Origin: an uncultured Clostridia bacterium
GTDB taxonomy: Bacteria; Bacillota; Clostridia; Christensenellales; Borkfalkiaceae
Assembly (NCBI GenBank): GCA_947624965.1
Contig: CANQMN010000004.1
Coordinates: 62,001-126,000, forward strand
Reading direction: 5' to 3'
Length of the DNA stretch: 64,000 nt
In this document: positions 1 through 56,751 of the stretch, piece after piece
Position numbering within the stretch: the first letter of the stretch is position 1
How the letters are laid out: each line of letters opens with the position of its first letter
Program-made: the position numbers and the translations under genes
The notes under the pieces: generated by a model
The model's database searches: none
The model's input: only the letters and a program-made list of their open reading frames with translations
What the model was told of the DNA's origin: nothing

Positions 1-3000
1 CGTCGTATAGGTGTTGTCCTTGATCTTCTGCGCGAGCTTCACGGTGCCATAGAGCTCGGTATACGCTTCGACGAAGCCTTCGTACCCGATCTGCGTGAGC
101 AGGTCGTCTGCGAATTGCGGAAGATCCACATGCGATTCGTCGAGCTTGGATTTGAGAAGGTGGATATAGATCGCAACGAACCAGTTGTTGTCGCCGCTGA
201 TCACCTTCGTATGCGCCGTGTTCGCATCGTCGTTCTCCTCGCCCGTCCATTCGTCGCCGCGCGCGAGCCTATAAGCGTACTTCAACATTTCCTCGAAGAT
301 CTGCTCGCCGTTCAACGTCGTCGTATCATCCTTCCTGGGCTTGGAAGAGATGGAGAATTCGGAAATTTCCGAAAGTCCTTCGATCTCCGCGATCGTCGCG
401 GGGATATCGGACGCCTCCGCCATCTTCACCCATGCCTTGATGGAGGTCTCGCTCACCGCGGCGTAGAGCTTGGCGAGCTTTTCGGGTTCGTTTTTCACGA
501 GCTCGTACTTGGGCAATACGTTCGTCTTGAAATCGGACAGTTCGGAGTAGAGATACCCGTGATGATCGGTATCGGACGCCGTCCAGCCCTTATAATCGTA
601 CTGCGTGGGGTCGAAGTAGCCTTGGAACGCTTCTATCACGTCCTGTACTTCCTGCGGAACGGAGAAGTCGGGTTTTGCGTCGAGCTTGGTAACTTCCGCC
701 GTTACGCCGAGCCCGTTCGCCGTGAGGACCGTTTCGGGACGGTCGCGCTTCACGATGTCGAGGATGACGTTGACGTTGGCTTTCCAGCTATCCTTATCCG
801 TCGCGCCGAAGTAAATTTCGTAGTTATGAGCGGTGTCGCGGAGGTCGCCGTTGCCGTCGTCGCCATTACTGCCCGAATGGCAATTCCACATGAACCCTTC
901 CTCGTTGAACCGGAAGTTCAAAAGATGGGTGTTGACAACGTTCTCCATCGTCTCGTCGAGCCACGCGTGATCGCTCTCATTGGTCTTTTCGATGCGCGCG
1001 ACTTCCGTCATAATTGCATAGATGGCGTTGAAGTCCGAAACGAAATCACCTGCGCGTTTATCCTGCGAGCCGCGGTACGAGTAGAGCGTTTCGAGCGCAT
1101 CGGGAAGATCGACTTCCTGCTTTTCAAATTCCTTTTGGAGGAAGAGCACATGGAAGGAACGCTCGAAGTAGCCGGTCTCCGACTGGAAGCCTTTCTCGGC
1201 GAGCTGCGTGCTGTACAGCACCTCGAACGCCTTTTCGATCGCCTGCAAGCCCGTGTACGTAACGGTGTTGTCCATGTCGATGTTGCCGAGCTTGAACGTC
1301 TTTTCCGCCATGGAGGCTTCAAGCGCGAAGAGCTGCGTTGCGAACGTATCCCACGCCGTGATCTCTTCCTCGGTGTACAGCTTGTGGAGGAGCGTCTTGT
1401 TGGGCGCGTCTACCGTATCGTACTTCGCCTTGACGCCCTGATCGCGGTAGTATTTCGCGGAGGCATAGAGGTATCCTTTGAGGTTCTCTTCGCCCACCGT
1501 ATCCCAGCCGAGCCAAGCGTAATTGTTGTCGAGCTTGCCGATCTTATCCATCGCGTCCTTCACTGCCTGCGCTTCTTCGGAGAGCTCGGGTTCCCAAGGT
1601 TTCTCCACCGCCTCGACCTGTGCCGTAAAGCCGAGTCCGCAGTCGTTGAGCCCGGAGGCGTTTTCGGAATCGCGCTTCACGATCTCGCCGAGATAGCGGA
1701 GCGCCTCGTGGAGCGTGGGCATATCGGTGCCGAAATAGTTCTTATAGATGGTATCGCGTCCGTTTTCGCCTGCGTTGGGACGCTGTTCGCCGCCGCCGCC
1801 GTTGCCCCAGTTCCAAATAAGTCCGCCGTCGTGGAAGTTATCCCAGCCGACGTACTTGTTCACGACTGCGGTGAGCGCTTCGTCGAGGAAGGGCGTCGTG
1901 CCCTCCACGTCCAGCTTGTGGAGACGGGCATATTGTTCGTAGATGTCGATGAGGTAGGTCGCGTCCTTCACGAAGCCGTCCGTTTCCACGCAGTTGACCG
2001 CGGTGAGAAGCTCCTGTACGTATTCGGGAAGTTCGATCTCCTGCGCTTCCAATGCGCGCACCGCGTACACGAGGTGGAACCCTGCGACCCAGTGCGAGTT
2101 CGAGGAGAGAACTCTTTCGGTCTCGGCATATTCGTCGCGGATCTTGCCGCCGTCGTTATCTTCATCTTCGTAAGTGCCGTACTTGATTTTGAGCGCCCAC
2201 TTGATGACGTCGCGGATCGCCTGTTCCGCCGTGAAGGTCTCGGGCTGTGCGGAATGGTCCTTGGTGGCTTTGAGCATCGTAACGGAGCCCTCCGCCTCTC
2301 TTGCCGCTTCGAGCGCGGCGTGCGCCTTCTCCCACGTTGTGAACAGCGCGTTTTCCGCCTTGTCGAGCTGCGTGGTAACTTCCGTCTTCTGCTCGGGCGT
2401 GAGCGATTCGTATTCGCCTTTCAGTTCGATCGCGGCGTTCACTTCGTCCTCGAAGTAGCCCGTCTTTACTTCTTCTGCCGTCGTCCAGTCGATGAAATGA
2501 TAGTTGTCGATATCGGGAAGCGCGTTATACTTCGTGAGGAACGCCTGCGCCTCCTGCGAGATGGGGTCGGGCTGACCCTGCGTAACGGGAGCCGTAACGC
2601 CCGTCTTGTCCGCGGTGAGCGCGAGCCCTTCCGTGCGGCGCTGTGCGATATCGGTGATACGCTTGATGTAGTCGATGAGATCGGTGCCCTCCGAGAGCCC
2701 GAAATACGTCTTGTAGATCTTGTTGCGATAGGTGAAGTCCTTCGTCGCAAAGGCGCCGTTCGTGAAGTTCCACGCGAGACCCGCTTCCTTGAACCCGTTG
2801 TGGTTCACCATGTAGGTGTTCACGACTTCCGCCATGTGTTCGGTGATGTAGTTGATGGAGCGGTCCGCTTCGAGCTCGGCAACGACGGAGAGGACGTTGT
2901 AGAGATAGTCGAAGTCCGTCGCCCAATTCGTGTTGTAATAGCCGATGGTGTTGAGAAGGTTGCCCACGAGGGTGGGAAGTTCCACCTCCGCCTCTTCGAG

Positions 3001-5244
3001 CTTGTGGAGCAAGAAGGACATATGGAAGGAGACGAGCCAGTGGTTGTTCGAGTTCATCAAGTTCTCGTAATCCGCGCTGTCGGGCGCCGTGGTGTCGTCG
3101 CGCTCGCCTGCCTGCCAAGGATCTGTCGCCGTCGTCCACGGTCCCTTGATCTTATAGCCGTATTCGAGGATCCACTTCAACGCTTCCTCGCCGCTTGCAT
3201 ACGACTTGGTGCCGCCGCTGACGCCGACGGTCGTGAGCGTGAAGCCCGTATAATGCGCGTCCTCCGCAAGCGCCGCCATCTCCGTATCGAGCGTTGCCCA
3301 GCCCTCGAAGACGGCTCTGCCCCAAAGCCGCTTGACGTTTTCCTTGTCGTTGGGGTATTCGCCCGTGGTATCGAGCGCGTCGAACGCTACCTTGTATTCG
3401 CGGAACTTTTCGAGCTCGGTATACAGATAGCCCGAGATGTTCTGCGCGTCCGCCGTCGTCCAGCCCTTGTAGGCGTACGCCGTGATATTGGAGAGCGTAC
3501 GGAAATTCGTAAGGACCGCCTGCGCTCCCTCGGAGAGGCGCATGCTCTCTTCAAAGGTCTGCTTTGCGGGTGCGAGCGGCGAGAAGTCCAAAAGATAGAG
3601 GTATCTCTGCTCGACCGTGGCGTTTTCGTGCGCTTCGCCCACGCCCTGCATGTTGGATACCTCTTCGATGAGCTCTTCCATTTCGAGCGCATTGTCGCCG
3701 TTGATCCCTTTGAGCAGATCGATCTTATCCTGATACGTTTTGAGTTTGCCGGAGATCTCGTCCGCCGAGACGGGCGACTTGGCGTAATCGAAGGAATAGT
3801 AATCCTTCCCGTCTCTCTTCGTGTAAGACGAGCTCGCATACGTATTCAGAATGGTGTAATCGTAGGTGCCCGGCGTCGCCTCGTCGTTGGCGAGGAGAAG
3901 ATCGTGCCACTGTCCGCGGAGGGAAGAATCGATGGAACCGACGGTGTATTCGATGTCGGTGATCTCTTCCGTCGTGGGGAAGTAGACCTTCGCTTCCGTT
4001 ACGGCAAGATTCAAAAATTGCGCGCCGTTGAAATAATCCGCAATGTCGGCTTTGGAAACAGCCTGGGAATTGTTTTTAATGTCCAGCCCCGCAATAAACA
4101 CGAACCCGTTGTTCGGCGTAAGCGGAGAGCCCGGGAAATAATTGTTGATGAGCGAATCGGTGAGGCGGCGTTCGTACTTCGCGCCGTCCTTCAATTCGAT
4201 TACGAGGTCGTCGACCCAATAAGTTTCTTCGTTGCCGTCTATCTCATCGACCATGCGCTTGGTCTGGATGGACATGCTGACTTCTTTGTTATCGGGTACA
4301 AAGTACCCCCCCCCTGCGTCATCGACCCACGTGGAGGTCATCACGCATTCGCCCTTGTTGTAAGTAACGTCGTTGAAACTGTCGTTACGGGAGGAGCCTT
4401 CAAACGCGTACCAGTTGCCCGTCGTAACGTCGCACGCGAGACCGACGGAAATGACGTAGTAATCTTCCCATGCGTGGAACCCGAAGAACGCGTAAACGGG
4501 ATCGGTCCCCGCGTAGTTGGGAACGATCTTCACTTGGGAGAGGTCCAGTTTGTATTGGAGCCCGGCAACGCCCTTCTTGCGCGCGGGGAATACCTGCACG
4601 GCGGCGTCCATCGTCTTGGAGAGCTCCCAGCTCTGCGCCTGCGCGATCTCCGCCGTCGAGGGGATCTCCTCGCCGTACTCATCGAGGAATCCGTAGCCGT
4701 TCCAGCCCTGCACGGCGTCCATTCCGTGGTTTTGGAGCTCGCTGACGATGAGCTTGGTGTTCGTGATGAGCTGAATGCTCTCCGTTGCGTTCCAGCAGTC
4801 GTACGCGGCGAGCGAAGCGCCGTTTTCGTGATACCAAAACTGGTCGTCGGACGCCTCCGCATAGCCCTTGCGGGAAGTGAACAGCTTGCGCGTGCCGTTC
4901 TTCTTCTTGACGTAGCCGCCCTCCGTCGCGATGGGCGTCGTCGCCTCTCCGAAGTACGTTGCATCGGATGCGACCGCTGCTCTTATCGCCGCCGACAGCG
5001 TGGAATAGGAACCTATCTTCGCGTTCTGGCGGTCGTAGGCTTCGTACGCGTCCGCCGCGCGGTCGTCCGTGCGTGCGGGTGCGACGAAATCTTTCTTCTC
5101 CGGACCGTTGGTGATGCGCCCGAGCTCGTGCGTGCCCGAGTTTTTCCCGTTGGTGCCGTCGTCGTCGGAAGCGCATGCGGTGATGCCCGAAACGGCGGCG
5201 ATCAGCATGACGGAACCGAGCAAAAGTGCGGTGAATTTTTTCAT
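1..5244 (-). CDS. Giant repeat lipoprotein, 3' end outside the window
   Basis: The frame opens at an ATG (5242-5244) preceded by AGGAGGAAATC and stays open to base 1, so at least 1748 residues are present and the C-terminus lies beyond the window. It begins MKKFTALLLGSVMLIAAV and has a lipobox ending in Cys24 (ITAC), so it should be an exported, lipid-anchored surface protein. Residues about 30-600 form a unique region with Asp/Gly-rich beta-type segments. From about residue 600 there are four related units of 313-328 residues, each carrying an aromatic-Val-x-x-x-His-Leu/Met landmark followed by a Leu-Pro pair (landmarks near residues 732, 1049, 1362 and 1690). I do not recognise the family. 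Lipoprotein status is clear from sequence; function is unknown, with a surface-binding role being only a guess. A 1729-residue frame on the opposite strand is an antisense artefact: no Shine-Dalgarno, TTG start, no family. Confidence 0.85.
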   Translation of the reverse strand, partial: MKKFTALLLGSVMLIAAVSGITACASDDDGTNGKNSGTHELGRITNGPEKKDFVAPARTDDRAADAYEAYDRQNAKIGSYSTLSAAIRAAVASDATYFGEATTPIATEGGYVKKKNGTRKLFTSRKGYAEASDDQFWYHENGASLAAYDCWNATESIQLITNTKLIVSELQNHGMDAVQGWNGYGFLDEYGEEIPSTAEIAQAQSWELSKTMDAAVQVFPARKKGVAGLQYKLDLSQVKIVPNYAGTDPVYAFFGFHAWEDYYVISVGLACDVTTGNWYAFEGSSRNDSFNDVTYNKGECVMTSTWVDDAGGGYFVPDNKEVSMSIQTKRMVDEIDGNEETYWVDDLVIELKDGAKYERRLTDSLINNYFPGSPLTPNNGFVFIAGLDIKNNSQAVSKADIADYFNGAQFLNLAVTEAKVYFPTTEEITDIEYTVGSIDSSLRGQWHDLLLANDEATPGTYDYTILNTYASSSYTKRDGKDYYSFDYAKSPVSADEISGKLKTYQDKIDLLKGINGDNALEMEELIEEVSNMQGVGEAHENATVEQRYLYLLDFSPLAPAKQTFEESMRLSEGAQAVLTNFRTLSNITAYAYKGWTTADAQNISGYLYTELEKFREYKVAFDALDTTGEYPNDKENVKRLWGRAVFEGWATLDTEMAALAEDAHYTGFTLTTVGVSGGTKSYASGEEALKWILEYGYKIKGPWTTATDPWQAGERDDTTAPDSADYENLMNSNNHWLVSFHMSFLLHKLEEAEVELPTLVGNLLNTIGYYNTNWATDFDYLYNVLSVVAELEADRSINYITEHMAEVVNTYMVNHNGFKEAGLAWNFTNGAFATKDFTYRNKIYKTYFGLSEGTDLIDYIKRITDIAQRRTEGLALTADKTGVTAPVTQGQPDPISQEAQAFLTKYNALPDIDNYHFIDWTTAEEVKTGYFEDEVNAAIELKGEYESLTPEQKTEVTTQLDKAENALFTTWEKAHAALEAAREAEGSVTMLKATKDHSAQPETFTAEQAIRDVIKWALKIKYGTYEDEDNDGGKIRDEYAETERVLSSNSHWVAGFHLVYAVRALEAQEIELPEYVQELLTAVNCVETDGFVKDATYLIDIYEQYARLHKLDVEGTTPFLDEALTAVVNKYVGWDNFHDGGLIWNWGNGGGGEQRPNAGENGRDTIYKNYFGTDMPTLHEALRYLGEIVKRDSENASGLNDCGLGFTAQVEAVEKPWEPELSEEAQAVKDAMDKIGKLDNNYAWLGWDTVGEENLKGYLYASAKYYRDQGVKAKYDTVDAPNKTLLHKLYTEEEITAWDTFATQLFALEASMAEKTFKLGNIDMDNTVTYTGLQAIEKAFEVLYSTQLAEKGFQSETGYFERSFHVLFLQKEFEKQEVDLPDALETLYSYRGSQDKRAGDFVSDFNAIYAIMTEVARIEKTNESDHAWLDETMENVVNTHLLNFRFNEEGFMWNCHSGSNGDDGNGDLRDTAHNYEIYFGATDKDSWKANVNVILDIVKRDRPETVLTANGLGVTAEVTKLDAKPDFSVPQEVQDVIEAFQGYFDPTQYDYKGWTASDTDHHGYLYSELSDFKTNVLPKYELVKNEPEKLAKLYAAVSETSIKAWVKMAEASDIPATIAEIEGLSEISEFSISSKPRKDDTTTLNGEQIFEEMLKYAYRLARGDEWTGEENDDANTAHTKVISGDNNWFVAIYIHLLKSKLDESHVDLPQFADDLLTQIGYEGFVEAYTELYGTVKLAQKIKDNTYTT

Positions 5245-5297: not shown

Positions 5298-5326
5298 ATC
5301 TTAACACCAAAAATAACATTTGTCAA
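5298..5326 (-). promoter_or_regulatory. Sigma-A promoter of the giant lipoprotein gene
   Basis: On the minus strand TTGACA (5326-5321) is followed after 17 bp by TAAGAT (5303-5298). The start codon lies about 54 bases downstream of the -10 box. The surrounding 5330-5500 is strongly AT-rich and holds no gene. Confidence 0.8.
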
Positions 5327-5504
5327 CAGATTTTGAAAAAAATTTTTGTTTTTTGTAAGATAAAACTTTTTTATTTCCAAATATTACCAGAAAAACTTAT
5401 TTCAAAAGAAAAAAAGTTTCTTTTTCTTTGTGAACGATTGTTTGATGTTTTCGTCTTATTTTTTCACTCTTATGAGAATTGTTAATTTTTAACATAAATT
5501 TCTG

Positions 5505-6040
5505 CACCCCTCCCCCCACCCTACCCTCCCCCCCCTCGTTCCGAGGGGGGGAGGTAAAACGGAGCGTCCTACCCTTGCGTTAAGGGGGCGGCGAGGTGTC
5601 TCTCCCCCTACCCTACCCTCCCCCCTCGTTCCGAGGGGGGAGGTAAAACGGAGCGTCCCCCCCTTGCGAGAGAGACATACCACGTTACACCCCTGCAAGG
5701 AGCATACAACAGCGTTACCCTCCCCCTTACAAAGGGGGAGGGGTTGGGGAGGGGGTAGGAAAACACTCCCCCGTTCGCCTCTTTGTAGCGACCTCCCCGT
5801 TCTCCCCCCCACCCTACCCTCCCCCCTCGTTCCGAGGGGGGAGGTAAAACGGAGCGTCCCCCCCCTTGCGAGAGAGACATACCACGTTACACCCCTGCAA
5901 GGAGCATACAACAGCGTTACCCCCATAAGAGGGAAATACGATAACGCCCTCTTTTTACAGTAGCGTTACACCCCTTTTCAAGGGGGACCTACCACGTTAC
6001 CCTCCCCCTTTGTAAGGGGGAGGGGTTGGGGAGGGGGTAG
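5505..6040. repeat. Intergenic array of GC-rich hairpin repeats
   Basis: No gene is seen here. Three copies of a palindromic unit (core CTCGTTCCGAGGGGGG followed by AGGTAAAACGGAGCGTCC) lie at about 5518-5568, 5608-5657 and 5812-5858. A second unit of about 60 bp, containing GCGAGAGAGACATACCACG and a following AACAGCGTTACC, occurs at about 5660-5719 and 5863-5921. A third palindrome, CCTCCCCCTT / AAGGGGGAGG with a following GGTTGGGGAGGGGGTAG tail, occurs at 5716-5757 and 5998-6040. These are short, iterated, non-coding elements of REP/BIME style; overlapping open frames in them are compositional noise. Confidence 0.8.
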
Positions 6041-6077
6041 AAAAAAACCGCCCGCGGAGATCTCTCTCCGCGGGCGG
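6041..6077 (-). terminator. Rho-independent terminator after the RpiR-type regulator
   Basis: Perfect 11-bp stem (6048-6058 with 6067-6077) and an 8-base loop, followed on the minus strand by seven T residues (6047-6041). It sits 22 bases after the regulator's stop codon. Confidence 0.9.
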
Positions 6078-6098: not shown

Positions 6099-6932
6099 TT
6101 AAATCAGTTTTCCCGCGGTCGCGCGGCTGCTCTTCGCAACGGCGGCGTCGTAGCGGGATTTCTCCGAACGGTGGATGCCCGTGGAGAGCACGTCTACCAA
6201 GAAAAGCTGCATCACTTTCCCGGACATCGCGCCCGGTTCCATGGGGGAATCCATGGGAGACGCGGAGATCACGAGGTCGGCATACCGCGTGAGCGGGGAC
6301 TTCTCGTAACAGGTGATCACGATGATCTTCATGCCGTTGGCGCGGGCGAGCTCCGCCGCCTCCACCGTGTCCTTCGAGGAGCCCGAGATGGAGAAAATTA
6401 CGATGAGGTCCTCTTCCCCGCGCGAGGAGATGAGCACGTTCTGCATGTGCGTGTCGCGCTCGCAGTGGGTGAGGAGCCCCATCATCATGAGGCGGTTATG
6501 CAGTTCGAGCGCGGCGAGATAGGAATGCCCCACGCCGAAACAGCAGATGCTCTTCGCCTTCGAGATGAGCTCGATCGCTTCCTCGATCTGCGTTGCACTC
6601 AACGTGCGGCGGCAATTCTTCATCGCCGCGATGTACGTCTCGGCGATCTCGCCCACGTAGCCCGTCCCCTCCGGCTCTTCGTGCCCGATCTCGATAATGC
6701 CCTGCGCGAGGCTCAAACGAAATTCCTGATAGCCGTTGAACCCGAGGGAGCGGCAAAACCGCAGAACGGTCGCCTCCGCGACGCCCGTCGCCACCGCAAG
6801 GTCGGTGATGGACATATAGATGACTTGCCTTAAATCGATCCCCTCGAAATAATCGAGGAGCCGCTTTTGGCTCTTCGTGAGTTTCCCCGCACGGAGCGTT
6901 GCAAGTTTGTTTCTGATGGATACGTTCGGCAT
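6099..6932 (-). CDS. RpiR/MurR-family transcriptional regulator
   Basis: A 277-residue protein with the standard two-part layout of the family: an N-terminal HTH_6 domain (about residues 1-80; TDLAVATGVAEATVLRFCRS is the recognition region) and a C-terminal SIS sugar-phosphate-binding domain (about 110-245; CCFGVGHSYLAALE and IFSISGSSKDTVEAAELA are typical SIS phosphate-binding loops). Family members such as MurR, NagR-like and RpiR respond to phosphosugars, often amino-sugar phosphates. ATG with GGAGGAGAAAGCT upstream. It lies directly downstream of, and in the same direction as, a GH20/ROK operon but has its own promoter and terminator, so it probably controls that operon and perhaps itself. 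The effector is inferred, not shown. Confidence 0.93.
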   Translation of the reverse strand: MPNVSIRNKLATLRAGKLTKSQKRLLDYFEGIDLRQVIYMSITDLAVATGVAEATVLRFCRSLGFNGYQEFRLSLAQGIIEIGHEEPEGTGYVGEIAETYIAAMKNCRRTLSATQIEEAIELISKAKSICCFGVGHSYLAALELHNRLMMMGLLTHCERDTHMQNVLISSRGEEDLIVIFSISGSSKDTVEAAELARANGMKIIVITCYEKSPLTRYADLVISASPMDSPMEPGAMSGKVMQLFLVDVLSTGIHRSEKSRYDAAVAKSSRATAGKLI

Positions 6933-6985
6933 AGCTTTCTCCTCCGTTCCGCCGTCGCGCCCCGAAAAGCGAGACTGTCTTGTTT

Positions 6986-7014
6986 ATTTTAATCGAAAGA
7001 AACGTTTTTGTCAA
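6986..7014 (-). promoter_or_regulatory. Promoter of the RpiR-type gene, inside the end of the preceding CDS
   Basis: TTGACA (7014-7009), a 17-bp spacer and TAAAAT (6991-6986) on the minus strand. The -35 lies inside the last codons of the acyltransferase gene and the -10 overlaps its TAA stop, giving the regulator independent expression within the cluster. Confidence 0.8.
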
Positions 7015-7786
7015 GCGTTCCGCATGCCGCGCCCAATTTTCCGCCCGCCGAAAGATACGCTTTTACCGCGCGGCGGAGCGACGTGTCCTCGGGATAGTCC
7101 TCCACGGCGCGCGCGCCGCCGAAGAGAAACTCTTCGTAACTGCGGTCGTCCTCGAACACTTCCCCGATGCGGAACCGCTTTCGGAACTGCGCGATGCGGG
7201 AGCCCTGCGGCAAGAATTGCCCGAGCGCGGGCGCAAGCAGCCACGAATGGCACTTGCGGGGTGCATCCGCATAGCGCGGCGCAAACGCGCGCAGAAATTC
7301 GTCCGCCTGCGCGAGCGAGCGCGCCACGGAGGGCGCGGAGAGGTCGGCGTCGGAGGGAATGTGCAGAAACACCGCCTCGCTCCCCCCTTCGTCCGTCGTC
7401 TCGTATTCGAGCGTCCCGATACGGAAGAGCACGAGCGAGAGCATGCGCCCCGTCCAACGGTAGCGGTCGAACCCGTATTCGCCGAAGTCCTTTTTATGTT
7501 CGCGCACGAAGCGGGAAAAACATCGGAACGTCTCGGTGAAAACAGATTCGGGAATGCCCGCCTCCCGATATTTTTCGCGGGAGAGCAGGGCGGCGTCGAG
7601 CATATAGGCGAGCATCGCGTCGCCGTTCTCGCCCGTGCGCGCGGCAAGTTCTTCCACCGCGAAGGGATATTCCTTGGGAATGGTGAGCCGCTCCCTGTAC
7701 CGCGCCGCGTCGGGCACGGGCGGGAGCCTTCTTCGCATCTCCTCCGGCATGCCGATCTGCGCGCAGAGCGCCTGTATCCCGTCCAC
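6989..7786 (-). CDS. GNAT-like acyltransferase domain protein
   Basis: 265 residues, GTG start one base after the stop of the GH20 gene, so translation is probably coupled. The C-terminal half carries LHIPSDADLSAPSV and, further on, CHSWLLAPALGQFLPQGS, which I recognise as the signature of the GNAT-like N-/C-terminal acyltransferase pair found in clostridial proteins of this size and often beside amino-sugar genes. No signal peptide or membrane segment: cytoplasmic. The family is assigned from motif memory; substrate unknown. In this operon an N-acyl transfer to (or from) an amino sugar released by the hexosaminidase is plausible inference. Confidence 0.75.
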   Translation of the reverse strand: MDGIQALCAQIGMPEEMRRRLPPVPDAARYRERLTIPKEYPFAVEELAARTGENGDAMLAYMLDAALLSREKYREAGIPESVFTETFRCFSRFVREHKKDFGEYGFDRYRWTGRMLSLVLFRIGTLEYETTDEGGSEAVFLHIPSDADLSAPSVARSLAQADEFLRAFAPRYADAPRKCHSWLLAPALGQFLPQGSRIAQFRKRFRIGEVFEDDRSYEEFLFGGARAVEDYPEDTSLRRAVKAYLSAGGKLGAACGTLDKNVSFD

Positions 7787-7787
7787 G

Positions 7788-9656
7788 TTACTCGTTCACG
7801 TTGACCGAGCTCATGCGCCGCCAACGCCATTCGCACTGGTCGTAATCCTTTTCGTATTCCTTGCCGTGCCCCGTGAAGCAGAGGAGCTCCTCTTCGAGCT
7901 CGGGCACGGACGCCGCCTCGCCGCACAGCCAGCTCTCCGTCTTTTCGATCGCCGTGCGGATGCGCCGTTCGAGCGCGCCGAGGCGGATATCCTGCACGTC
8001 GAACCCGTTCGGGCGGTTTTCGCGCTCCCACTGCGCGCGGAGCGCCCTGTAAAACGCCATTAGACGGGGCAGGACGTCCCGCTTCATCACGCAGACGAGC
8101 TCCTTGACCTTCTCCCTGTCCCCCGCCCGATAGGCGGCGCGGAGCTTTATGCCGAGCTCCGCCTTGACGCTCAACAGGCGGCACAGCACGTACTGCGTTT
8201 CAAACAGATAGTCCCACTTCCCCGCGCGGCTCTGCGCGCGGGCGATGCGCGCCGCGTGCTCGCGGTAGAGCGCGTTGAGCCCCTCGGGAACGAGCGTATC
8301 CAGCGTCCCGAGCAAAACGTCGTTGAAGAGAAGGAATTTGTTCGCGCTGTTCTTTTCCTCCACGTCGCCGTTCCGCGTGAGGCGGTTGGCGAGGTCGAGC
8401 TTCATGAAATCCTTGAAGGGAAGCCCCGCCAGCGACAGGAAGGCGCGCTCGAAGCGGCGGTCGGCGTCGAAAAAGCCGAGGTTGAGGCGGGAACAGTGGT
8501 GCAGCGCGGGAAGCGTCGCAAAGACGGAGCACTCCGCGCCGTTGTCCCCCCAGCCCGTAACGATGAACTTGCGCACCCCCGCCTGACGGCAGGCGCGCGC
8601 CGCCGAAGAACTCGCCGCGATCGCATAGCGGTTATCGGGCGTGTAGCCGAGCCACTTCCACGCGCCGCCCGCAAACGCGATCTCGTTGCGGAACACGCGG
8701 TGTCTGTGGAGATTTTCCATATAGTGTGCGGCGGAAGTACTGCAATAGTCCCAATAGACGAGCTCCACGTTGCGCGGAACGCGCTCCGCGAGCTCCCGCG
8801 GGAGCATCCCGCCGTACTGTGCGTCCATGGTGAGGGAGAAGAACATATCCGACCACATCATGGGGTGTTCGTAGCCGTATTTTTTGCAGATCTCCAAGAC
8901 GCGCGTGAGGTGCTCCATCATGACGTCGAAGCGGTTGCGCGCGCCGTGGCGGTCCATATAAACGCCTCTGCCGAGCATGTACGCCTCGTCCATGCCGATA
9001 TGGATCTCGCGGGACTTAAAATAGGACGCGCACGCGGCGATGAGCGTCTCCAAAAACGCGTACGTCGGCTCCTCCCCGACGAGAAGAATGTCGTTGCAGT
9101 CGAACAAATGCTGCATGGAGGGATGGCGGGTGAGCGTGTTGAAGTGCGCGAGCGTCTGGATATAGGGCACGAGCTCGATGCCGAAGAGGTCGCAATACGC
9201 CTCCGTCCGCGCGATCTCCTCCCGCGTGAACGGGTTGCGCAGATATCCGAAATAGGGAAGCGCGGGCACGGCGAACGTATCCTCCATATACAGCCCGAGC
9301 GCGTTATAGCCGAGGACCGCGAGATGGCGGATGAGCTCGAACAGCGTCTCCTCGCGGGGAACGGCGTTGCGCGAGCAATCGAGCATATAAGTGAGCGCGA
9401 AGCGGGGTTCGAGCACGGCGAAATATCCGTCCCGCGGCGCTCCCTCCGATTCGTCCGAAAAATATTTCAGCGCAAAAAATACCTGCACGCGCGCGGAGAC
9501 GATGAGTTCCAGCGTCCCGCCGCGATAGGACAGGACGATCCCCCGCCCTTCCTTGACGACGACGGGAATGCCGCCCGCGCCGCACTCGAACCCGAACTGC
9601 CCCGAAAGCTCCTCCGCCCCGCGGGCGTACGCTCCTCCGATCTCGTACTTTATCAT
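7788..9656 (-). CDS. GH20 family beta-N-acetylhexosaminidase, cytoplasmic
   Basis: 622 residues without signal peptide. The catalytic Asp-Glu pair of GH20, which uses the substrate 2-acetamido group as nucleophile, is seen in HIGMDEA (Asp223, Glu224). Upstream elements typical of the barrel include RFALTYMLDCSRN (strand 1), GYNALGLYMED and LVPYIQTLAHFN. A roughly 200-residue alpha-helical C-terminal tail (450-622) follows the barrel. Expected role: release of terminal GlcNAc/GalNAc from imported oligosaccharides or muropeptide-derived sugars. It sits 3 bases downstream of the ROK kinase gene and upstream of the acyltransferase in one operon, consistent with amino-sugar salvage. Confidence 0.88.
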   Translation of the reverse strand: MIKYEIGGAYARGAEELSGQFGFECGAGGIPVVVKEGRGIVLSYRGGTLELIVSARVQVFFALKYFSDESEGAPRDGYFAVLEPRFALTYMLDCSRNAVPREETLFELIRHLAVLGYNALGLYMEDTFAVPALPYFGYLRNPFTREEIARTEAYCDLFGIELVPYIQTLAHFNTLTRHPSMQHLFDCNDILLVGEEPTYAFLETLIAACASYFKSREIHIGMDEAYMLGRGVYMDRHGARNRFDVMMEHLTRVLEICKKYGYEHPMMWSDMFFSLTMDAQYGGMLPRELAERVPRNVELVYWDYCSTSAAHYMENLHRHRVFRNEIAFAGGAWKWLGYTPDNRYAIAASSSAARACRQAGVRKFIVTGWGDNGAECSVFATLPALHHCSRLNLGFFDADRRFERAFLSLAGLPFKDFMKLDLANRLTRNGDVEEKNSANKFLLFNDVLLGTLDTLVPEGLNALYREHAARIARAQSRAGKWDYLFETQYVLCRLLSVKAELGIKLRAAYRAGDREKVKELVCVMKRDVLPRLMAFYRALRAQWERENRPNGFDVQDIRLGALERRIRTAIEKTESWLCGEAASVPELEEELLCFTGHGKEYEKDYDQCEWRWRRMSSVNVNE

Positions 9657-9659
9657 AAT

Positions 9660-10514
9660 TTACTCTCCGATTTTCTCTCCGTAAGCGGCTCCGTATATCC
9701 CCGCGCGCACCCCGAGACGGGCGAACGCGATGTCCGAACTGTCCTCGATGAGCCGCAAAAACGCCTGCTGCGACTGCGCGATCCCGCCGCCCAAGAGGAT
9801 GACGGAGGGGGCGACCGCCGTTCTGATCACCGAAAGCAGGCGGTTGAGCGCCGTGCGGAAGGGGGATAGCGCCTCCTCCGCCGCCCGTTCCCCCTCGCCG
9901 AAGCGGAAAAACAGCTCCTTTACGTCCGCGAGCGCGGGAATGCGCTCCCGCCCCGCGCGCAGGATCGCCGCCGCGGAGAGATAGCTCTCCGCGCAACCCC
10001 GCTTGCCGCACGAGCAGGGCGCGCCGTCCGGCACGAGCACGACGTGTCCCCAGCGCGCGCCGTCGAAATTTTTTCCGCGCACGATCTTTCCGTTCACGAG
10101 GCTCGCGCCGCCGACGCCCGTCCCGAAGGTGAGCATCGTAACGTCGCGCGCGTCCGCAAGCAGGGTAAGTTCTCCTTTGAGCGCGCAGACGGCGTCGTTA
10201 TCGGCATGGCACGGAAGCCCGTACCGCGCCGAGACGCGCGCCGCGACGGGCGCGCCCGTCCAGCCGCGCAAATTCTCCGTCGCATACACGCACGTCCCCG
10301 TCGCGGGGTCGATATTGCCCGCGGAGGAGATCCCGAGAGACGCGACGTCCCTTTCGATGAGCCTGTCTATAACGGCGAAGATCGCGCCGAAGATCGCCTC
10401 TCTCCCCTCTTGCGCGGGCGTGGGCGCGCTCGCTTCGCACACGATCTTGCCCGCTTCGTCGAACCGCGCTCCCTTTACGGACGTCCCGCCGACGTCCAAA
10501 CCGATCACTTCCAC
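9660..10514 (-). CDS. ROK family sugar kinase
   Basis: I place the start at a GTG (10514-10512) because GGAGGGG lies 4 bases upstream and the protein then begins (M)EVIGLDVGGTSVKG, the canonical ROK phosphate-binding start; a longer frame exists but lacks support. 284 residues, cytoplasmic. Other hallmarks: a DNDAVCALKGEL segment with the catalytic Asp, LTFGTGVGGASLVNGKI, and the zinc-binding CSCGKRGCAESY near the HxxL region (here GHVVL). ROK members phosphorylate glucose, GlcNAc, ManNAc or similar, or act as repressors; no HTH is present, so this is a kinase. The start overlaps the DUF4127 gene by 10 bases. GlcNAc as substrate is inferred from the GH20 neighbour. Confidence 0.9.
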   Translation of the reverse strand: MEVIGLDVGGTSVKGARFDEAGKIVCEASAPTPAQEGREAIFGAIFAVIDRLIERDVASLGISSAGNIDPATGTCVYATENLRGWTGAPVAARVSARYGLPCHADNDAVCALKGELTLLADARDVTMLTFGTGVGGASLVNGKIVRGKNFDGARWGHVVLVPDGAPCSCGKRGCAESYLSAAAILRAGRERIPALADVKELFFRFGEGERAAEEALSPFRTALNRLLSVIRTAVAPSVILLGGGIAQSQQAFLRLIEDSSDIAFARLGVRAGIYGAAYGEKIGE

Positions 10515-12016
10515 GTTTCCCCTCCGGGCGTGAGGCGGATATCCGCCTCGAACATTCTTCTCCACGGCATGGAGACGTCCACATCCTTCACATGCGCGGC
10601 AAGCAGGGGGAACCGCTCTCCCATGTATTTCACGATCTCCTCTTTCACGAAGCGGGCGACCGTTCCGCGCGCGCCGTCCGCATGGAAATAGTCCAGCCCG
10701 AGCGCGGGCAGACGTTCGGTAACCTTCGCCCGCACGGCGCCCATGTACGCCATGTCCTCATAGTAGCGGTGCAACAAAAAGCGGATGCGCCCCGCATCGT
10801 CGCCGCCGAGGAGGGAAAGAACGCTCTGGCAGACCGCCGTCCCGATGGTGTTGGAGGAAGTATTCCAGCCCGCGTACGCGTCCAAACGCAGGAGAAGGTC
10901 TTCGTCGTACAACAGTCCGAAGAGTTCCCCGTCCGCGCCGTTGCACGTGGCGACGTCCGCCACGGCGACGCGCTTGCCGCACGCGAGCGCGTATTCGAGA
11001 TAGGAGACGAACTCCGCGAGGTTGCGCTCGACGTCGTACGCCGCAGAGCGGCGCGGGTCGTTCTCCTCCGTCATCGCCGAGCCCATGTTGACGGCTAGCA
11101 GGATATCCGCCTCCGCGAGGGAATACACCTGCGTGCAGTGCGCGGCGAGAAGGTGGTATTTTATCGTCTCGGCGAGCGGTCTGTCCTCGAACCACGGCAC
11201 GACGGCGCCCGCCATCTCCGAGGCGTATTTCACAAAAACCTTGGGGCGCGCCCCGCGCGCCTCGGCGATCGCCCGCGCGAGCAGAATGAGCCCCGTGTCG
11301 TCCGCGGACGGGTACATCGCCGTCCTCAAATGCAGTCTGTTCTCTTTGAGATATTCGCGCACGGCGAGCTGGTCCATCGTCGTGAAGCCGTACACCGCCG
11401 CGTCGTCCTGCGGGACGATGAAATAGTCCGCCGTCCCGTCCTTGGCGAAGCGGAGGTCCCAAAGGAGCGCTTCGCGGTTGACCCTCCGCCGCTCCGAAAA
11501 GTCGCGGAGAACTTCGGGGGGAATGCACGCTTGGACCCGCGCAAGATCTTCGCGCTCCTCATCGGTGAGAATGCCCAGCCGCTCGCGGTGGGTATACCTT
11601 CCGAGCAGGTGGAGCTCCCGCCCGCACACGTCGTAATATTCGGGCTCCTCGTCGGAGAGCGAATAATCGGGACAGCGCATGATGAGTTGGAAGAGATAGA
11701 GTTTGAGCGCGGGATTGTTCCGTTTGAGCGTCTCCACGACGGAGGAACGCGCCTTCAACGTCTCCAAACTTTCGTGATGGAGGCGGGAAGGGACGATGCC
11801 GCCGTACAGCAGCATATCGAGGGAGAGGATGCAGGCGTCCGCATCCTTCGTCTCCTCGATGAGCCACGCGTGCAGGCGGGGAAGATCGGCGGGACGCTTT
11901 TTGTCGCCGAGCATGTCCCGCGGAGGCAAAATCAAACTGTACCCCGCCGCGGGCATCAAAAGCGGATAGTTGTAGTTGCAAGGCCGCTCGTCCAGCGGCG
12001 CCATCACGATCTTCAT
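10505..12016 (-). CDS. DUF4127 family protein
   Basis: 503 residues, no signal peptide or membrane helix. The N-terminus MKIVMAPLDERPCNYNYP, followed by LILPPRDMLGDKK, and internal FIVPQDDAAVYG and SSNTIGTAVCQ segments are what I know as the DUF4127 family, whose biochemical function is not established. The conserved Asp/Glu/Arg/His-rich motifs suggest an enzyme. It overlaps the SGNH gene upstream by four bases (ATGA) and the ROK gene downstream by ten, so it is tied into the operon by translational coupling. Its fixed place among sugar enzymes suggests a step in amino-sugar or glycan metabolism; that is inference. Confidence 0.85.
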   Translation of the reverse strand: MKIVMAPLDERPCNYNYPLLMPAAGYSLILPPRDMLGDKKRPADLPRLHAWLIEETKDADACILSLDMLLYGGIVPSRLHHESLETLKARSSVVETLKRNNPALKLYLFQLIMRCPDYSLSDEEPEYYDVCGRELHLLGRYTHRERLGILTDEEREDLARVQACIPPEVLRDFSERRRVNREALLWDLRFAKDGTADYFIVPQDDAAVYGFTTMDQLAVREYLKENRLHLRTAMYPSADDTGLILLARAIAEARGARPKVFVKYASEMAGAVVPWFEDRPLAETIKYHLLAAHCTQVYSLAEADILLAVNMGSAMTEENDPRRSAAYDVERNLAEFVSYLEYALACGKRVAVADVATCNGADGELFGLLYDEDLLLRLDAYAGWNTSSNTIGTAVCQSVLSLLGGDDAGRIRFLLHRYYEDMAYMGAVRAKVTERLPALGLDYFHADGARGTVARFVKEEIVKYMGERFPLLAAHVKDVDVSMPWRRMFEADIRLTPGGETWK

Positions 12017-13059
12017 GGGGTCCTCTCCCGCAGAACGGGACGAAATTCTCGCTCGTAAAGCGCGGCGATCGCCGCCATCCCCATATCGTTGGGATGGACG
12101 CCGTCCGTCGTATATTCGGTGAAATTTCCTTCAAAAATATTGCCGCCGTCCGCAAAGCGCACGTCGTAGCCCTGCCGGGAAAACTTTTCCGCGAGCATGC
12201 GGAGATGCTCCGCGCACCGCGCCGCCAGCGCGGCGCGCGCCCCGTCGTAGAGATCGAGCGCGAACTTCACGCGCGAGAAGAGCACGACGGACGCCCTCCC
12301 GTTGCGGGAGAGGAAGGCTTCGAGAAAGCCCTCCGCATTGCGCTCCAACCTTTCGTCTACGCCGGCGTTGGGCTCCGCGTCCACGGCGAGCGCGTCGAGC
12401 CGCCGCCGCCCGAGGATCTCCCCCATCTCGCGTTCGAGGAACGCCACGCCGGAAAACCCGAAGTTGAGCGTTTCACAGCCGAGACGGCGGGATAAGATGT
12501 TCGTATAGGCGAGCCCGGGACGGGACGCCGCGCACCCGTGCGTGATGCTCGTGCCGTACACGCCGATGCGCAGGTCCGTTTCAAATCCGTACGGCTTTAC
12601 ATACGCGTCGCGGTCCAGCCCGATCTCCAACGCGTCCACCGCCATGTACAGCGGCAGATGTATTAAAAAACGGCGCGGCTTCTTTTCCGTGAAATGGGAG
12701 AGCGGCACCTCGTAGCGGGTGGCGTCGAAATCGTACCGCGCGACTTCGTGCAGTGCGAACCCGTTCACGCGGTCGTCCCAAACGTACAAATCGAGCCCGC
12801 ACTGCGCGATCTGCGTCATATTCGTCATGTCGAACTTCCCGCGGAGGACGACCCGCACCGCGAGCGAGACGGAATCCGTTTCAAAGCGCAAAGAGATCCC
12901 GGCGGAATGCTCCCCGAACCACGCCGCGCCGTCGTTGACGGGACGAAGAAAGTCCCGCTCCTCCCGCGTGAGGCGGCAATATCCCTCCTCGTGCAGTGCG
13001 TCCGAACCGAACCGCGCGAACGCCGCGTCCTTTCCGCTCCGCCAGACGAGCGCGCTCAA
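12013..13059 (-). CDS. SGNH/GDSL-type hydrolase with N-terminal jelly-roll
   Basis: 348 residues, no signal peptide. Residues about 1-165 resemble the beta-rich N-terminal domain (containing GLDLYVWDD, a GxDLY-type motif) that precedes SGNH esterases. The hydrolase part holds block I as GTSITHGCAASRPG (Ser nucleophile), the Gly block as NFGFSGVAFLE, and the Asp-x-x-His pair in TDGVHPNDMG near residue 325. The third block, usually GxND, reads DAEPNAG. Expected activity: deacylation (often O-acetyl removal) of carbohydrate. Start and stop overlap its neighbours by four bases each (ATGA), so it is in the middle of a translationally coupled operon. Confidence 0.85.
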   Translation of the reverse strand: MSALVWRSGKDAAFARFGSDALHEEGYCRLTREERDFLRPVNDGAAWFGEHSAGISLRFETDSVSLAVRVVLRGKFDMTNMTQIAQCGLDLYVWDDRVNGFALHEVARYDFDATRYEVPLSHFTEKKPRRFLIHLPLYMAVDALEIGLDRDAYVKPYGFETDLRIGVYGTSITHGCAASRPGLAYTNILSRRLGCETLNFGFSGVAFLEREMGEILGRRRLDALAVDAEPNAGVDERLERNAEGFLEAFLSRNGRASVVLFSRVKFALDLYDGARAALAARCAEHLRMLAEKFSRQGYDVRFADGGNIFEGNFTEYTTDGVHPNDMGMAAIAALYEREFRPVLRERTP

Positions 13060-14543
13060 TCCGCCCTCTTCGTTACCAGCAGGGAATTGAGAACGGGACG
13101 GGTGTTTTCGAGCCCGTCGCTTCCCGTATCGCTGGAACGGACGAGCGTCTTGCCGCTCGTCTCCCCGTCGCCGCGGACGACGAGATGGGAGGAGCCGCCG
13201 CCGTCGAAGTTCGCCGCCTGTTTACAGCCGTAGAAGTAGGCAAATTCGGCGAGTTCCGGCAAGTTCATGCCGTGCGTGTCGCCCGTTTGGCTGCGCCCGC
13301 CGTAGTACATCGATTCGACGCAGAACACGACGACGGTGTGCGCGTCTTTGTCTTTGAGCCCCACCGCCGTGCGGGGCACATCGGGAGATTGCGCCCCGTT
13401 GCTATGCTCCGAGGAGACGGTCGCGGCGATCGCATCGTCGACGACGAGCGCATGGCGGCATCCCAAAATGGTCTCGTAACCGTTCCACGCCCCGTCCTCG
13501 GAGACGACGGAAAGGGATACGCTGTCGCCGACGGCGAGCTTATTTAACCATACGCCCGCGGCGCCCGATGCGGACCCCGCGACGAGCCAGCCGTACTCCG
13601 TGCTCGTCTCCAAATTCGTTCTTCCCGAAATCACTTTTTTCTCGCTCACCGTGAGCGCGGTGATGCCGTTCGCGCGCGCCACTTTCACCGCGACGCCGCT
13701 GAACGCCGTATAGTCCGCCGTGCGGAAGGAGAGCGTCTCCCCGTCCGCCGAGGGGTTGCTGTTTTCCGAAACGGGAATGTAATTTTTCCCGTCGTATACC
13801 GCATAGGAGAGCTTGCTCTTGACGAGCGTCTCCTTCACGGAAGCGGACTTGGGGTCGCCCGTATAGGCGCGGATGGGCGCGATCTGCGCGCCGTCCCCCT
13901 TCACGCCGAAGAGCATGGGCGCGGAGGCGGGAACGTCGTGATCGTCGTTCGTATAATTGTAGCCGCCCTTGTCGTTGTGCCCGTCTTTGAGAATGACGCC
14001 GTCCTTTACGAAGGCGTTGACGGGCTTGAATACGTTCGGCGTTACCTCGCCGAAAAAGTCGGCGTTGACGCTCGCATAGACGTGTCCGCCCGTCGCGCTC
14101 TCCCACGCCTTCGCCTGCGTATAGGGCGCGGCTTTTTTGGTGTAAACGTTCGGAAGGGCGGGATCGCTGACGATGCTGTTCCCCGTCGAACCCGCATGGA
14201 TCTCCGCCTTGCGCAGATCCACTTCGATGGCATAGACGACGGAGGTGTTGCCGTTCGTCTTGACGACGGTGTTCTTCACGAGATGAACGCCGTCTCCCAG
14301 TTTGGTCACCTCGTTTTGCACGCTCTTGCCGAATTTTTGCGGCTCGTAATCGCGGTAGACAACGGTAAAGGTATCCGCGGCGGGCGGGGGCGTTTCGCTG
14401 CCGTCGGGAGGCGGCAATTCGTTTTGGGGACCGCCCGTCGGCGTTTGAGGCGCGGGTTCTTCGTCGCACGCGGCGAAGCACAGCATGCCGGAGAGCGCGA
14501 AGCAGACGGCAAACGCAAGCAGTTTCTTTTTGGCAAATCTCAT
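13056..14543 (-). CDS. Phosphodiester glycosidase (NAGPA domain) lipoprotein
   Basis: The start at 14543 gives MRFAKKKLLAFAVCFALS and a lipobox ending CFAAC, with AGAGGAACTTT upstream; longer frames lack a signal peptide. 495 residues. After a Pro/Gly-rich linker (PQTPTGG...) comes a roughly 400-residue NAGPA-type domain: YAIEVDLRKAEIHAG, YASVNADFFGE, PRTAVGLKD and NFDGGGSSHLVVRG close to the C-terminus. Relatives hydrolyse GlcNAc-1-phosphodiester or similar sugar phosphodiesters. Exported and lipid-anchored, it would act on wall or environmental glycopolymers, supplying substrate for the cytoplasmic enzymes encoded downstream. First gene of the operon, with its own strong promoter. Exact substrate not determinable from sequence. 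Confidence 0.85.
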   Translation of the reverse strand: MRFAKKKLLAFAVCFALSGMLCFAACDEEPAPQTPTGGPQNELPPPDGSETPPPAADTFTVVYRDYEPQKFGKSVQNEVTKLGDGVHLVKNTVVKTNGNTSVVYAIEVDLRKAEIHAGSTGNSIVSDPALPNVYTKKAAPYTQAKAWESATGGHVYASVNADFFGEVTPNVFKPVNAFVKDGVILKDGHNDKGGYNYTNDDHDVPASAPMLFGVKGDGAQIAPIRAYTGDPKSASVKETLVKSKLSYAVYDGKNYIPVSENSNPSADGETLSFRTADYTAFSGVAVKVARANGITALTVSEKKVISGRTNLETSTEYGWLVAGSASGAAGVWLNKLAVGDSVSLSVVSEDGAWNGYETILGCRHALVVDDAIAATVSSEHSNGAQSPDVPRTAVGLKDKDAHTVVVFCVESMYYGGRSQTGDTHGMNLPELAEFAYFYGCKQAANFDGGGSSHLVVRGDGETSGKTLVRSSDTGSDGLENTRPVLNSLLVTKRAD

Positions 14544-14591: not shown

Positions 14592-14620
14592 ATTGTAACG
14601 GATAAAACTGCTTTTGTCAA
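14592..14620 (-). promoter_or_regulatory. Sigma-A promoter of the phosphodiester glycosidase operon
   Basis: TTGACA (14620-14615), 17-bp spacer, TACAAT (14597-14592) on the minus strand, about 50 bases before the start codon. Near-consensus, so the six-gene operon should be well expressed unless repressed. Confidence 0.85.
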
Positions 14621-14784
14621 CGGTTTTGAAAAAAATTTTCTTATATTTTTCCGCTTTTTTGCAAAAAACTGCCGTAAATTTTGTGAAACAACTCAATTTT
14701 GCAAAATATTTTCATTATATCAAAGAGGAGAACGCCCGTACGAGACGACCGTCTCTGTATCCCCACCCCGCTGTTTTCCTCACG

Positions 14785-14836: not shown

Positions 14837-15000
14837 CTTACTTTCTCGGATTCTTAATGTTCGCCTGTGCGGCTGCAAATGCGATGTCCGCCCTCATAGA
14901 ACAAGGACGGACTTCGTTTTTCTTGGTCGTTCGGGCGTTCCGCACGGCGCTTGCCGCAATCTTACTTTCTCGGATTCTTAATGTTCGCCTGTGCGGCTGC
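14837..15000. repeat. 40-bp direct repeat duplicating the 3' end of ppdK
   Basis: The last 39 bases of ppdK plus one (14961-15000, including its stop codon) recur without mismatch at 14837-14876, 124 bp further downstream. The spacer (14877-14960) contains a GTCCG(C/T)CC-type imperfect inverted repeat but no gene. The offset of 124 is not a multiple of three, so the second copy is not an in-frame extension. Confidence 0.9.
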
Positions 15001-56745: not shown

Positions 56746-56751
56746 AGTTCC

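Follow-up and report, generated by a model that had tools for sequence, protein, structure and literature searches.

Two predicted operons around DUF4127 genes

The 64,000-nt stretch of an uncultured Clostridia genome analysed here (the window) carries, at 6099..14543 on the minus strand, a gene of the uncharacterised DUF4127 family within a run of six genes (14543-6989) that encodes NAGPA, SGNH, DUF4127, ROK, GH20C and GNAT-like proteins, with a gene for an RpiR-family regulator downstream. A sequence-only reading had described these seven genes in this order, and we recovered all of them with Pfam, each above its gathering score. The features of the window are:

13056..14543, minus strand: NAGPA (phosphodiester glycosidase family) lipoprotein, first gene of the operon (PF09992, 70.7 bits)
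12013..13059, minus strand: SGNH hydrolase with a GxDLY domain (Lipase_GDSL_3 PF14606, 101.8 bits; GxDLY PF14607, 84.6 bits)
10505..12016, minus strand: DUF4127 protein of the cytoplasmic type, with PLDERPCN (PF13552, 488.9 bits)
9660..10514, minus strand: ROK sugar kinase, RxGH replacing the usual ExGH motif (PF00480, 157.8 bits)
7788..9656, minus strand: GH20C-type hexosaminidase (Glyco_H_20C_C PF18088, 171.8 bits; Glyco_hydro_20, 31.1 bits)
6989..7786, minus strand: NAT_N/GNAT_C acyltransferase-like protein (NAT_N, 77.7 bits; GNAT_C PF18164, 126.6 bits)
6099..6932, minus strand: RpiR-family regulator (HTH_6, 63.8 bits; SIS, 75.5 bits)
14592..14620, minus strand: near-consensus operon promoter TTGACA-17-TACAAT (promoter scan)
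14615..14639, minus strand: motif AAAATTTTTTTCAAAA-CC-GTTGACA at this promoter (exact genome match; second copy with two mismatches at 14697-14713)
6986..7014, minus strand: separate promoter ahead of RpiR, TTGACA-17-TAAAAT (promoter scan)
6048..6077, minus strand: terminator-like hairpin after RpiR (terminator scan)
5321..5346, minus strand: other exact copy of the motif, ahead of a second operon (exact genome match; second copy with two mismatches at 5391-5407, plus strand)
1..5244, minus strand: large repeat lipoprotein, first gene of the second operon, running off the window (reading frame to 5283; whole frame 61704-67283 of contig 4, 1859 codons)

The six genes are tightly packed. Neighbouring frames overlap by 4 bases at the NAGPA/SGNH and SGNH/DUF4127 junctions and by about 10 at DUF4127/ROK if the ROK gene starts at the GTG at 10514, as is likely; ROK and GH20C are separated by 3 bases, and GH20C and the GNAT-like gene by 1. 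The sequence-only reading had put overlaps and gaps at three bases at most, which is right for the gaps but too small for the overlaps, which reach 4-10 bases; the single promoter that it placed ahead of the six genes is there, at 14620-14592. The RpiR gene starts 56 bases past the GNAT-like gene, under a promoter of its own. Against the background of the scans, 7 promoter-like sites were found versus 2.2 in shuffled sequence, and 22 terminator-like sites versus 12.2.

The NAGPA protein matches PDB 3ohg with its DGGGS stretch aligned, and its N-terminus, read by eye with the lipobox rule, is a lipoprotein-type signal; inspection of the same kind found no signal peptide on the other five enzymes of the operon (SGNH, DUF4127, ROK, GH20C and GNAT-like). 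The SGNH protein matches PDB 4lhs (E 1.7e-30). The hexosaminidase combines the catalytic GH20 domain and the C-terminal GH20C domain with a D-E pair, presumably catalytic, in an IGMDEA stretch that is kept in its alignment with PDB 5a6b (E 5.8e-115); it is similar over about 515 residues to the beta-hexosaminidases PDB 5a69 and 2epk, which we take to be streptococcal GH20C enzymes, and unlike these solved enzymes it sits in a DUF4127 operon. The GNAT-like protein matches PDB 4mfz (E 2.2e-16) and 4q36 (E 1.3e-15) and by its sequence appears to be a relative of Dbv8 and Tcp24, to which it is similar over some 180-190 residues of the GNAT_C part. We take Dbv8 and Tcp24 to be glycopeptide glucosaminyl N-acyltransferases, acylating the amino group of glucosamine on glycopeptide antibiotics; the window gene, unlike them, has a sugar-salvage setting. 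The RpiR protein does not reach the NCBIfam cut-offs for MurR and HexR.

DUF4127 has two matches in the window genome (1.79 Mb in 34 contigs), both on contig 4 and separated by 15 kb. The second DUF4127 gene (56243-57757 of that contig) encodes a protein 52% identical to the window copy, and belongs to a second operon in which one strand carries, in order, the large lipoprotein, a substrate-binding protein, two permeases, DUF4127, GH31, a GH26-like lipoprotein, NanE, a ROK-like kinase, NagB, NagA and GH36. The lipoprotein gene starts inside the window, probably at the ATG at 5244; the ATP-binding cassette (ABC) importer, NanE, NagA and NagB lie just outside it. NagA (312 bits) and NagB (268 bits) exceed their NCBIfam equivalog cut-offs, and NanE (263 bits) exceeds its subfamily cut-off of 189. 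The kinase gene between NanE and NagB (L003:6051-7427, minus strand) has no Pfam or NCBIfam match, and profile comparison identified its product as a remote ROK relative (96% probability). The large lipoprotein (the 1859-codon frame; L124:4205-9784, minus strand) also has no Pfam match; its relatives lie near DUF4127 in 33 of 79 related loci, the best 79 of 430 DUF4127 matches, taken from named genome records. The operon of the sequence-only reading is therefore one half of a system whose other half is the second operon. Ten other records likewise have two DUF4127 loci, one of each operon kind, on one contig (e.g. L004/L040, L014/L027, L024/L038), and in two loci (L016 and L065) the genes of both operons are merged in one run comprising the importer, SGNH, DUF4127, ROK, NanE and glycosidases. 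RpiR, a ROK kinase and NanE, the catabolic core for N-acetylmannosamine (ManNAc), are all present in the two-operon locus, the specificity for ManNAc being predicted.

The first position of the ROK ExGH motif was R in 24 of 40 ROK rows of these loci and E in 13, the pattern not being found in 3 (a few genes are counted in more than one row). In E. coli NanK the residue is a histidine, according to excerpts of PMC5458393, so that this position varies among ManNAc kinases.

The two operons also share a promoter motif. The pattern AAAATTTTTTTCAAAA-N2/3-GTTGACA has exactly two sites in the 1.79-Mb genome, one ahead of each operon, and none in a reversed control; when up to two mismatches are allowed in its 17-base part, 26 genome sites are found versus 5 for the reversed control, and a second, weaker copy lies 60-73 bases from each operon promoter. 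Among the related loci, where common descent inflates such counts, GAAANNNNNTTTCAAA with at most one mismatch was found ahead of NAGPA in 13 of 22 (shuffle mean 0.83) and ahead of the large lipoprotein in 27 of 33 (18 of 24 distinct regions; shuffle mean 2.23 of 33), own locus included in both cases. It is rarer ahead of RpiR (4/34, shuffles 0.97), NanE (6/49, shuffles 0.97), GH20C (0/27) and DUF4127 (2/121).

This sequence could be a strong UP element, with no site for RpiR and no co-regulation of the operons. It is A/T-rich, abuts the -35 box and resembles the UP-element consensus, and the little enrichment ahead of RpiR itself would also fit. The two exact matches, both at these operons, the excess of inexact sites over the reversed control and the weaker second copies argue the other way, and we give the UP element limited credence. 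A further argument is the similarity of the motif to TCTGAAACTACTTTCAAA, the consensus site of SpNanR, an RpiR-family regulator that binds ManNAc-6-phosphate (ManNAc-6-P), as stated in excerpts of a preprint (PMC12713135). By this analogy we propose that the shared motif may be the operator of the RpiR protein. The SpNanR site is one base tighter; this spacing difference, like the resemblance to an UP element, counts against the regulation assumed in the salvage route proposed below.

DUF4127 neighbours and the link with NanE

To place these operons in a wider context, the 79 related loci were compared by profile searches with 39 DUF4127 windows from a sample of the phylum and with 20 control windows. 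Around DUF4127 in the 79 loci we found NanE in 45, permease 1 in 43, ROK in 38, RpiR in 37, GH20C in 25, SGNH in 24, NAGPA in 22 and GNAT-like genes in 18; the control windows contained ROK once, RpiR once and none of the other six. The gene set of the window operon is not due to chance, since its families are found repeatedly near DUF4127 in related loci and almost never in the controls. The 39 phylum windows contained NanE in 5, ROK in 6, RpiR in 5, permease 1 in 12 and a flavin adenine dinucleotide (FAD)-dependent oxidoreductase in 11, and GH20C, SGNH, NAGPA and GNAT-like genes in none. The co-occurrence with NAGPA, GH20C and GNAT-like genes that the sequence-only reading had set as its test gave a mixed result, being present in part of the related loci and absent from the phylum windows: its exact gene set is a trait of closer relatives, around a wider core of DUF4127, NanE, ROK, RpiR and the importer. 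NanE, the ManNAc-6-P epimerase, is the commonest catabolic partner of cytoplasmic DUF4127, accompanied by ROK, RpiR and the ABC importer, and the association with NanE, ROK and the importer reaches further than that with NAGPA, GH20C and the GNAT-like family.

The core with NanE, ROK and RpiR occurs in six Paenibacillus records (L053, L059, L073, L075, L078 and L079). Minimal operons, consisting of the substrate-binding protein, two permeases, DUF4127, NanE, RpiR, ROK and an FAD oxidoreductase, were found in L059, L079 (where RpiR lies ahead of the substrate-binding protein) and L132; none has a known glycosidase between the substrate-binding protein and the oxidoreductase, the scan stopping short of two same-strand genes of L132 upstream of the former. 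A GDPD-family protein accompanies DUF4127 in 25 of the 79 loci. In three loci (L054, L063 and L066) NanE and DUF4127 are followed by large GHL10-family proteins (PF02638), which are possibly another outer partner.

We next asked how far NanE and DUF4127 go together across whole genomes, counting as strong a NanE match with E < 1e-40. Among the 249 genomes of the phylum sample, 40 contain DUF4127 and 25 a strong NanE; DUF4127 is found in 18 of these 25 versus 22 of the other 224 (Fisher test, p = 2.5e-11). Counted by family, with families taken as 110, the link is 10 of 14 versus 9 of 96 (p = 1.4e-6). In a sample of the bacterium's own family (61 genomes, nine with DUF4127), all seven NanE genomes contain DUF4127 versus 2 of the 54 others (p = 8e-8), and in all seven a NanE lies within about 7 kb of a DUF4127. 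Six of the 18 phylum genomes carry the two genes within about 9 kb of each other on one contig (G000, which is the window genome, G126, G128, G145, G250 and G289).

Clusters for sialic acid (nan clusters) contain NanE, a ROK kinase, NagA and NagB, as the two-operon locus does. The window genome, unlike such clusters, has no match to the sialidase family PF13088, the one sialidase family searched, and its sole match to the NanA profile reaches 105 bits (cut-off 382). Matches at a similar level occur in nearly every genome searched, and we take this one to be the housekeeping relative DapA; likely NanA relatives elsewhere score 180-324 bits, also below the cut-off. In the 18 phylum genomes that combine NanE with DUF4127, NanA-profile matches do not exceed 160 bits, versus matches above 190 bits in 3 of the 7 strong-NanE genomes without DUF4127. 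RpiR-type regulation by ManNAc-6-P, described for nan clusters in excerpts of PMC12713135, would be a further feature in common.

A set of this kind can work without sialic acid, as the lmo2795-nanE operon of Listeria monocytogenes does: excerpts of PMC10667646 describe a set of RpiR, ROK, NanE and an oxidoreductase that is in part required for ManNAc to support growth, in a host that did not grow on sialic acid. RpiR, ROK and NanE are common to that operon and the present locus. The Listeria set also includes phosphotransferase system genes and a HAD protein, and the excerpts name no DUF4127 or ABC importer, whereas the present locus has an ABC importer, glycosidases and DUF4127.

The DUF4127 protein and its two branches

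The window DUF4127 protein covers positions 1-488 of the 489 of PF13552, its only Pfam match, and matches no known glycoside hydrolase family in that scan. Its AlphaFold2 model is of high confidence (pLDDT 94.7, pTM 0.94), with strands at residues 2-6, 61-65, 105-109, 198-203, 232-235, 259-264, 305-310 and 349-354 alternating with helices. Ten residues are conserved in at least 95% of 130 DUF4127 sequences (D9, R11, R78, R114, D204, D205, D239, D354, W384 and N385), and D9, R78, R114, D204-D205, D239, D354 and W384-N385 sit after strands in the model. The conserved residues and strand order of the model suggest a possible (beta/alpha)8 active site. Profile comparison with the GH20C, GHL10, GH31, GH26 and GH36 families of these loci showed no relation, and with no good match to a solved fold either, we place DUF4127 in no known enzyme family.

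By eye, the family divides into a cytoplasmic branch (PLDERPCN or PLDDRPC, no signal; 12 of the 39 phylum windows) and an exported branch (the other 27). Genes with S-layer homology (SLH) domains are near or fused to exported DUF4127 in 11 of the 39 windows versus 1 of 20 controls, five of them within 50 bases, and one exported protein (L133:7138-9687) consists of DUF4127 and three SLH repeats. In one genome (G297; L108 and L162) the DUF4127 gene is broken by a single stop codon.

According to excerpts of PMC6801904, SLH domains have 4,6-pyruvylated beta-ManNAc as a ligand, and the wall polymers of Paenibacillus contain ManNAc-(1-4)-GlcNAc repeats (GlcNAc, N-acetylglucosamine); teichoic acid is joined to peptidoglycan through ManNAc-beta-1,4-GlcNAc, according to excerpts of PMC7086022. 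On these grounds ManNAc-beta-1,4-GlcNAc, present in teichoic linkers and S-layer wall polymers, may be the common denominator. DUF4127 might then be a glycosidase of a new family and supply the missing beta-N-acetylmannosaminidase activity on this disaccharide; its exported, SLH-anchored form would trim the cell's own wall polymer and its cytoplasmic form would feed a sialic-acid-free salvage of ManNAc; we put this forward as a rather doubtful extension. The papers searched contain neither the word DUF4127 nor the word N-acetylmannosaminidase.

A proposed route for ManNAc salvage

The gene runs, the shared promoter motif, the gene families and the statistical link between DUF4127 and NanE are direct observations, and on them we build, with somewhat less than even confidence, the proposal that the two-operon locus salvages ManNAc from the wall glycans of other bacteria, DUF4127 being the predicted cytoplasmic enzyme that frees ManNAc from an imported fragment. 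Both the chemistry and the substrate, a teichoic linker or S-layer polymer, are predicted. Surface lipoproteins (NAGPA, the GH26-like protein and the protein of about 1850 residues) would bind and cut the wall polymer outside the cell, NAGPA cleaving an N-acetylhexosamine-1-phosphodiester such as the GlcNAc-alpha-1-P bond between teichoic acid and peptidoglycan, and the fragment would enter the cell through the ABC importer. In the cytoplasm, O-acyl groups may be stripped off by the SGNH protein and side sugars trimmed by GH20C, GH31 and GH36; DUF4127 would free ManNAc from ManNAc-beta-1,4-GlcNAc, its invariant arginines meeting the negative charge of a phosphate or pyruvate ketal, and the GNAT-like enzyme could put acetyl groups back on free amino sugars. 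Phosphorylation by ROK would yield ManNAc-6-P, which NanE would convert to GlcNAc-6-P for NagA and NagB to pass on to glycolysis, while RpiR would sense ManNAc-6-P and switch both operon promoters.

The polymer would be foreign because neither CsaB nor TagA/WecG has a match in the window genome. TagA/WecG is found in 6 of 6 tested phylum genomes with cytoplasmic DUF4127, and it is possible that the system serves salvage of foreign polymer in the former and recycling in the latter. Digestion of wall teichoic acid by GlpQ ends at the ManNAc-GlcNAc linker, according to excerpts of PMC7086022; GlpQ turnover has a parallel in the GDPD-family proteins of many DUF4127 loci, and the window genome differs in having no GDPD match among the scanned genes of its two operons. 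If true, the proposal would give the DUF4127 family its first testable role and offer a candidate pathway by which the ManNAc half of teichoic and S-layer wall polymers is used, and the presence of NanE would cease to indicate that a bacterium uses sialic acid.

Several observations weigh against this proposal. Searches found no protein of known function related to DUF4127 in sequence and no relative in PDB, and its structure matches are weak and mixed (best Foldseek E 2e-4, TM 0.22), for which reasons a glycosidase activity is something that we infer. NanE is not in the window operon itself; NanE and ROK are infrequent near DUF4127 in the phylum windows, and NanE and DUF4127 are on different contigs in 12 of the 18 phylum genomes. 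The NanE statistics pool both DUF4127 branches, five of these 12 genomes (family f13) having the exported type, and the exported branch is mostly without sugar genes. NAGPA and the GNAT-like gene accompany DUF4127 in closer relatives only, which limits generality; GH20C, GH31 and GH36 do not require ManNAc; and the route does not account for the FAD oxidoreductase that adjoins DUF4127 in many genomes. Four of the seven own-family NanE/DUF4127 genomes (G009, G038, G051 and G060) have a NanA-like gene (180-220 bits) with an adjoining PF13088 match, below cut-off in G060, so that NanE may serve sialic acid there too, and in G009 there are additional copies of NanE, one of them on a contig with no DUF4127 match.

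DUF4127 may alternatively act in the ManNAc/GlcNAc route without being a glycosidase, removing a pyruvate ketal or other acidic group, or cleaving a bond oxidatively together with the FAD oxidoreductase; release of the sugar would then fall to GH20C, GH31 or an unseen enzyme. Its three invariant arginines, the lack of likeness to any glycosidase family in profile comparison and the frequency of the oxidoreductase (FAD_oxidored PF12831; 14 of 79 loci, e.g. L073:11605-13251, and 11 of 39 phylum windows) would fit such a role. No such oxidoreductase lies near DUF4127 in loci like the two operons of the window genome (types A and B, 0/43), and the minimal operons have no other known candidate for cleaving the glycosidic bond; we consider this reading rather unlikely.

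Less probable still is a locus that serves to salvage glycans of the host or the diet (mucin, N-glycan, milk sugars), its ManNAc enzymes handling traces of sialic acid and the link to cell walls being incidental. Enzymes of the GH20C, GH31, GH36 and GH26-like families also act on glycans of hosts and plants, the titles of many related records name animal gut samples, and the pairs of NanA-like and PF13088 genes point the same way. The window genome itself has no PF13088 match and only the 105-bit NanA-profile match, the DUF4127-NanE-ROK-RpiR core is found in Paenibacillus, and one DUF4127 protein carries SLH repeats, all of which speak against this reading.

The outside-in salvage of amino sugars or wall glycan suggested by the sequence-only reading is thus supported and extended, but not its focus on GlcNAc-phosphate, since NanE is the commonest catabolic partner; a route for a GlcNAc-1-phosphate polymer, with NAGPA and GH20 as key steps and DUF4127 as an accessory, would account for the adjacency of NAGPA, GH20C, ROK and RpiR, and is very improbable in view of the restriction of NAGPA to 22 of the 79 loci and none of the phylum windows and of the minimal operons with neither NAGPA nor GH20C.

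Two sequence features flank the window operon. Between the operons, at 5500-6040, lie G+C-rich repeats with units of 34 and 22 bases, each present twice about 200 bases apart. At 14838-15010 the 3' end of gene 14962-17601, which by eye looks like a pyruvate phosphate dikinase gene, is apparently duplicated: about 40 bases including the stop codon recur some 120 bases downstream, beside a long hairpin.

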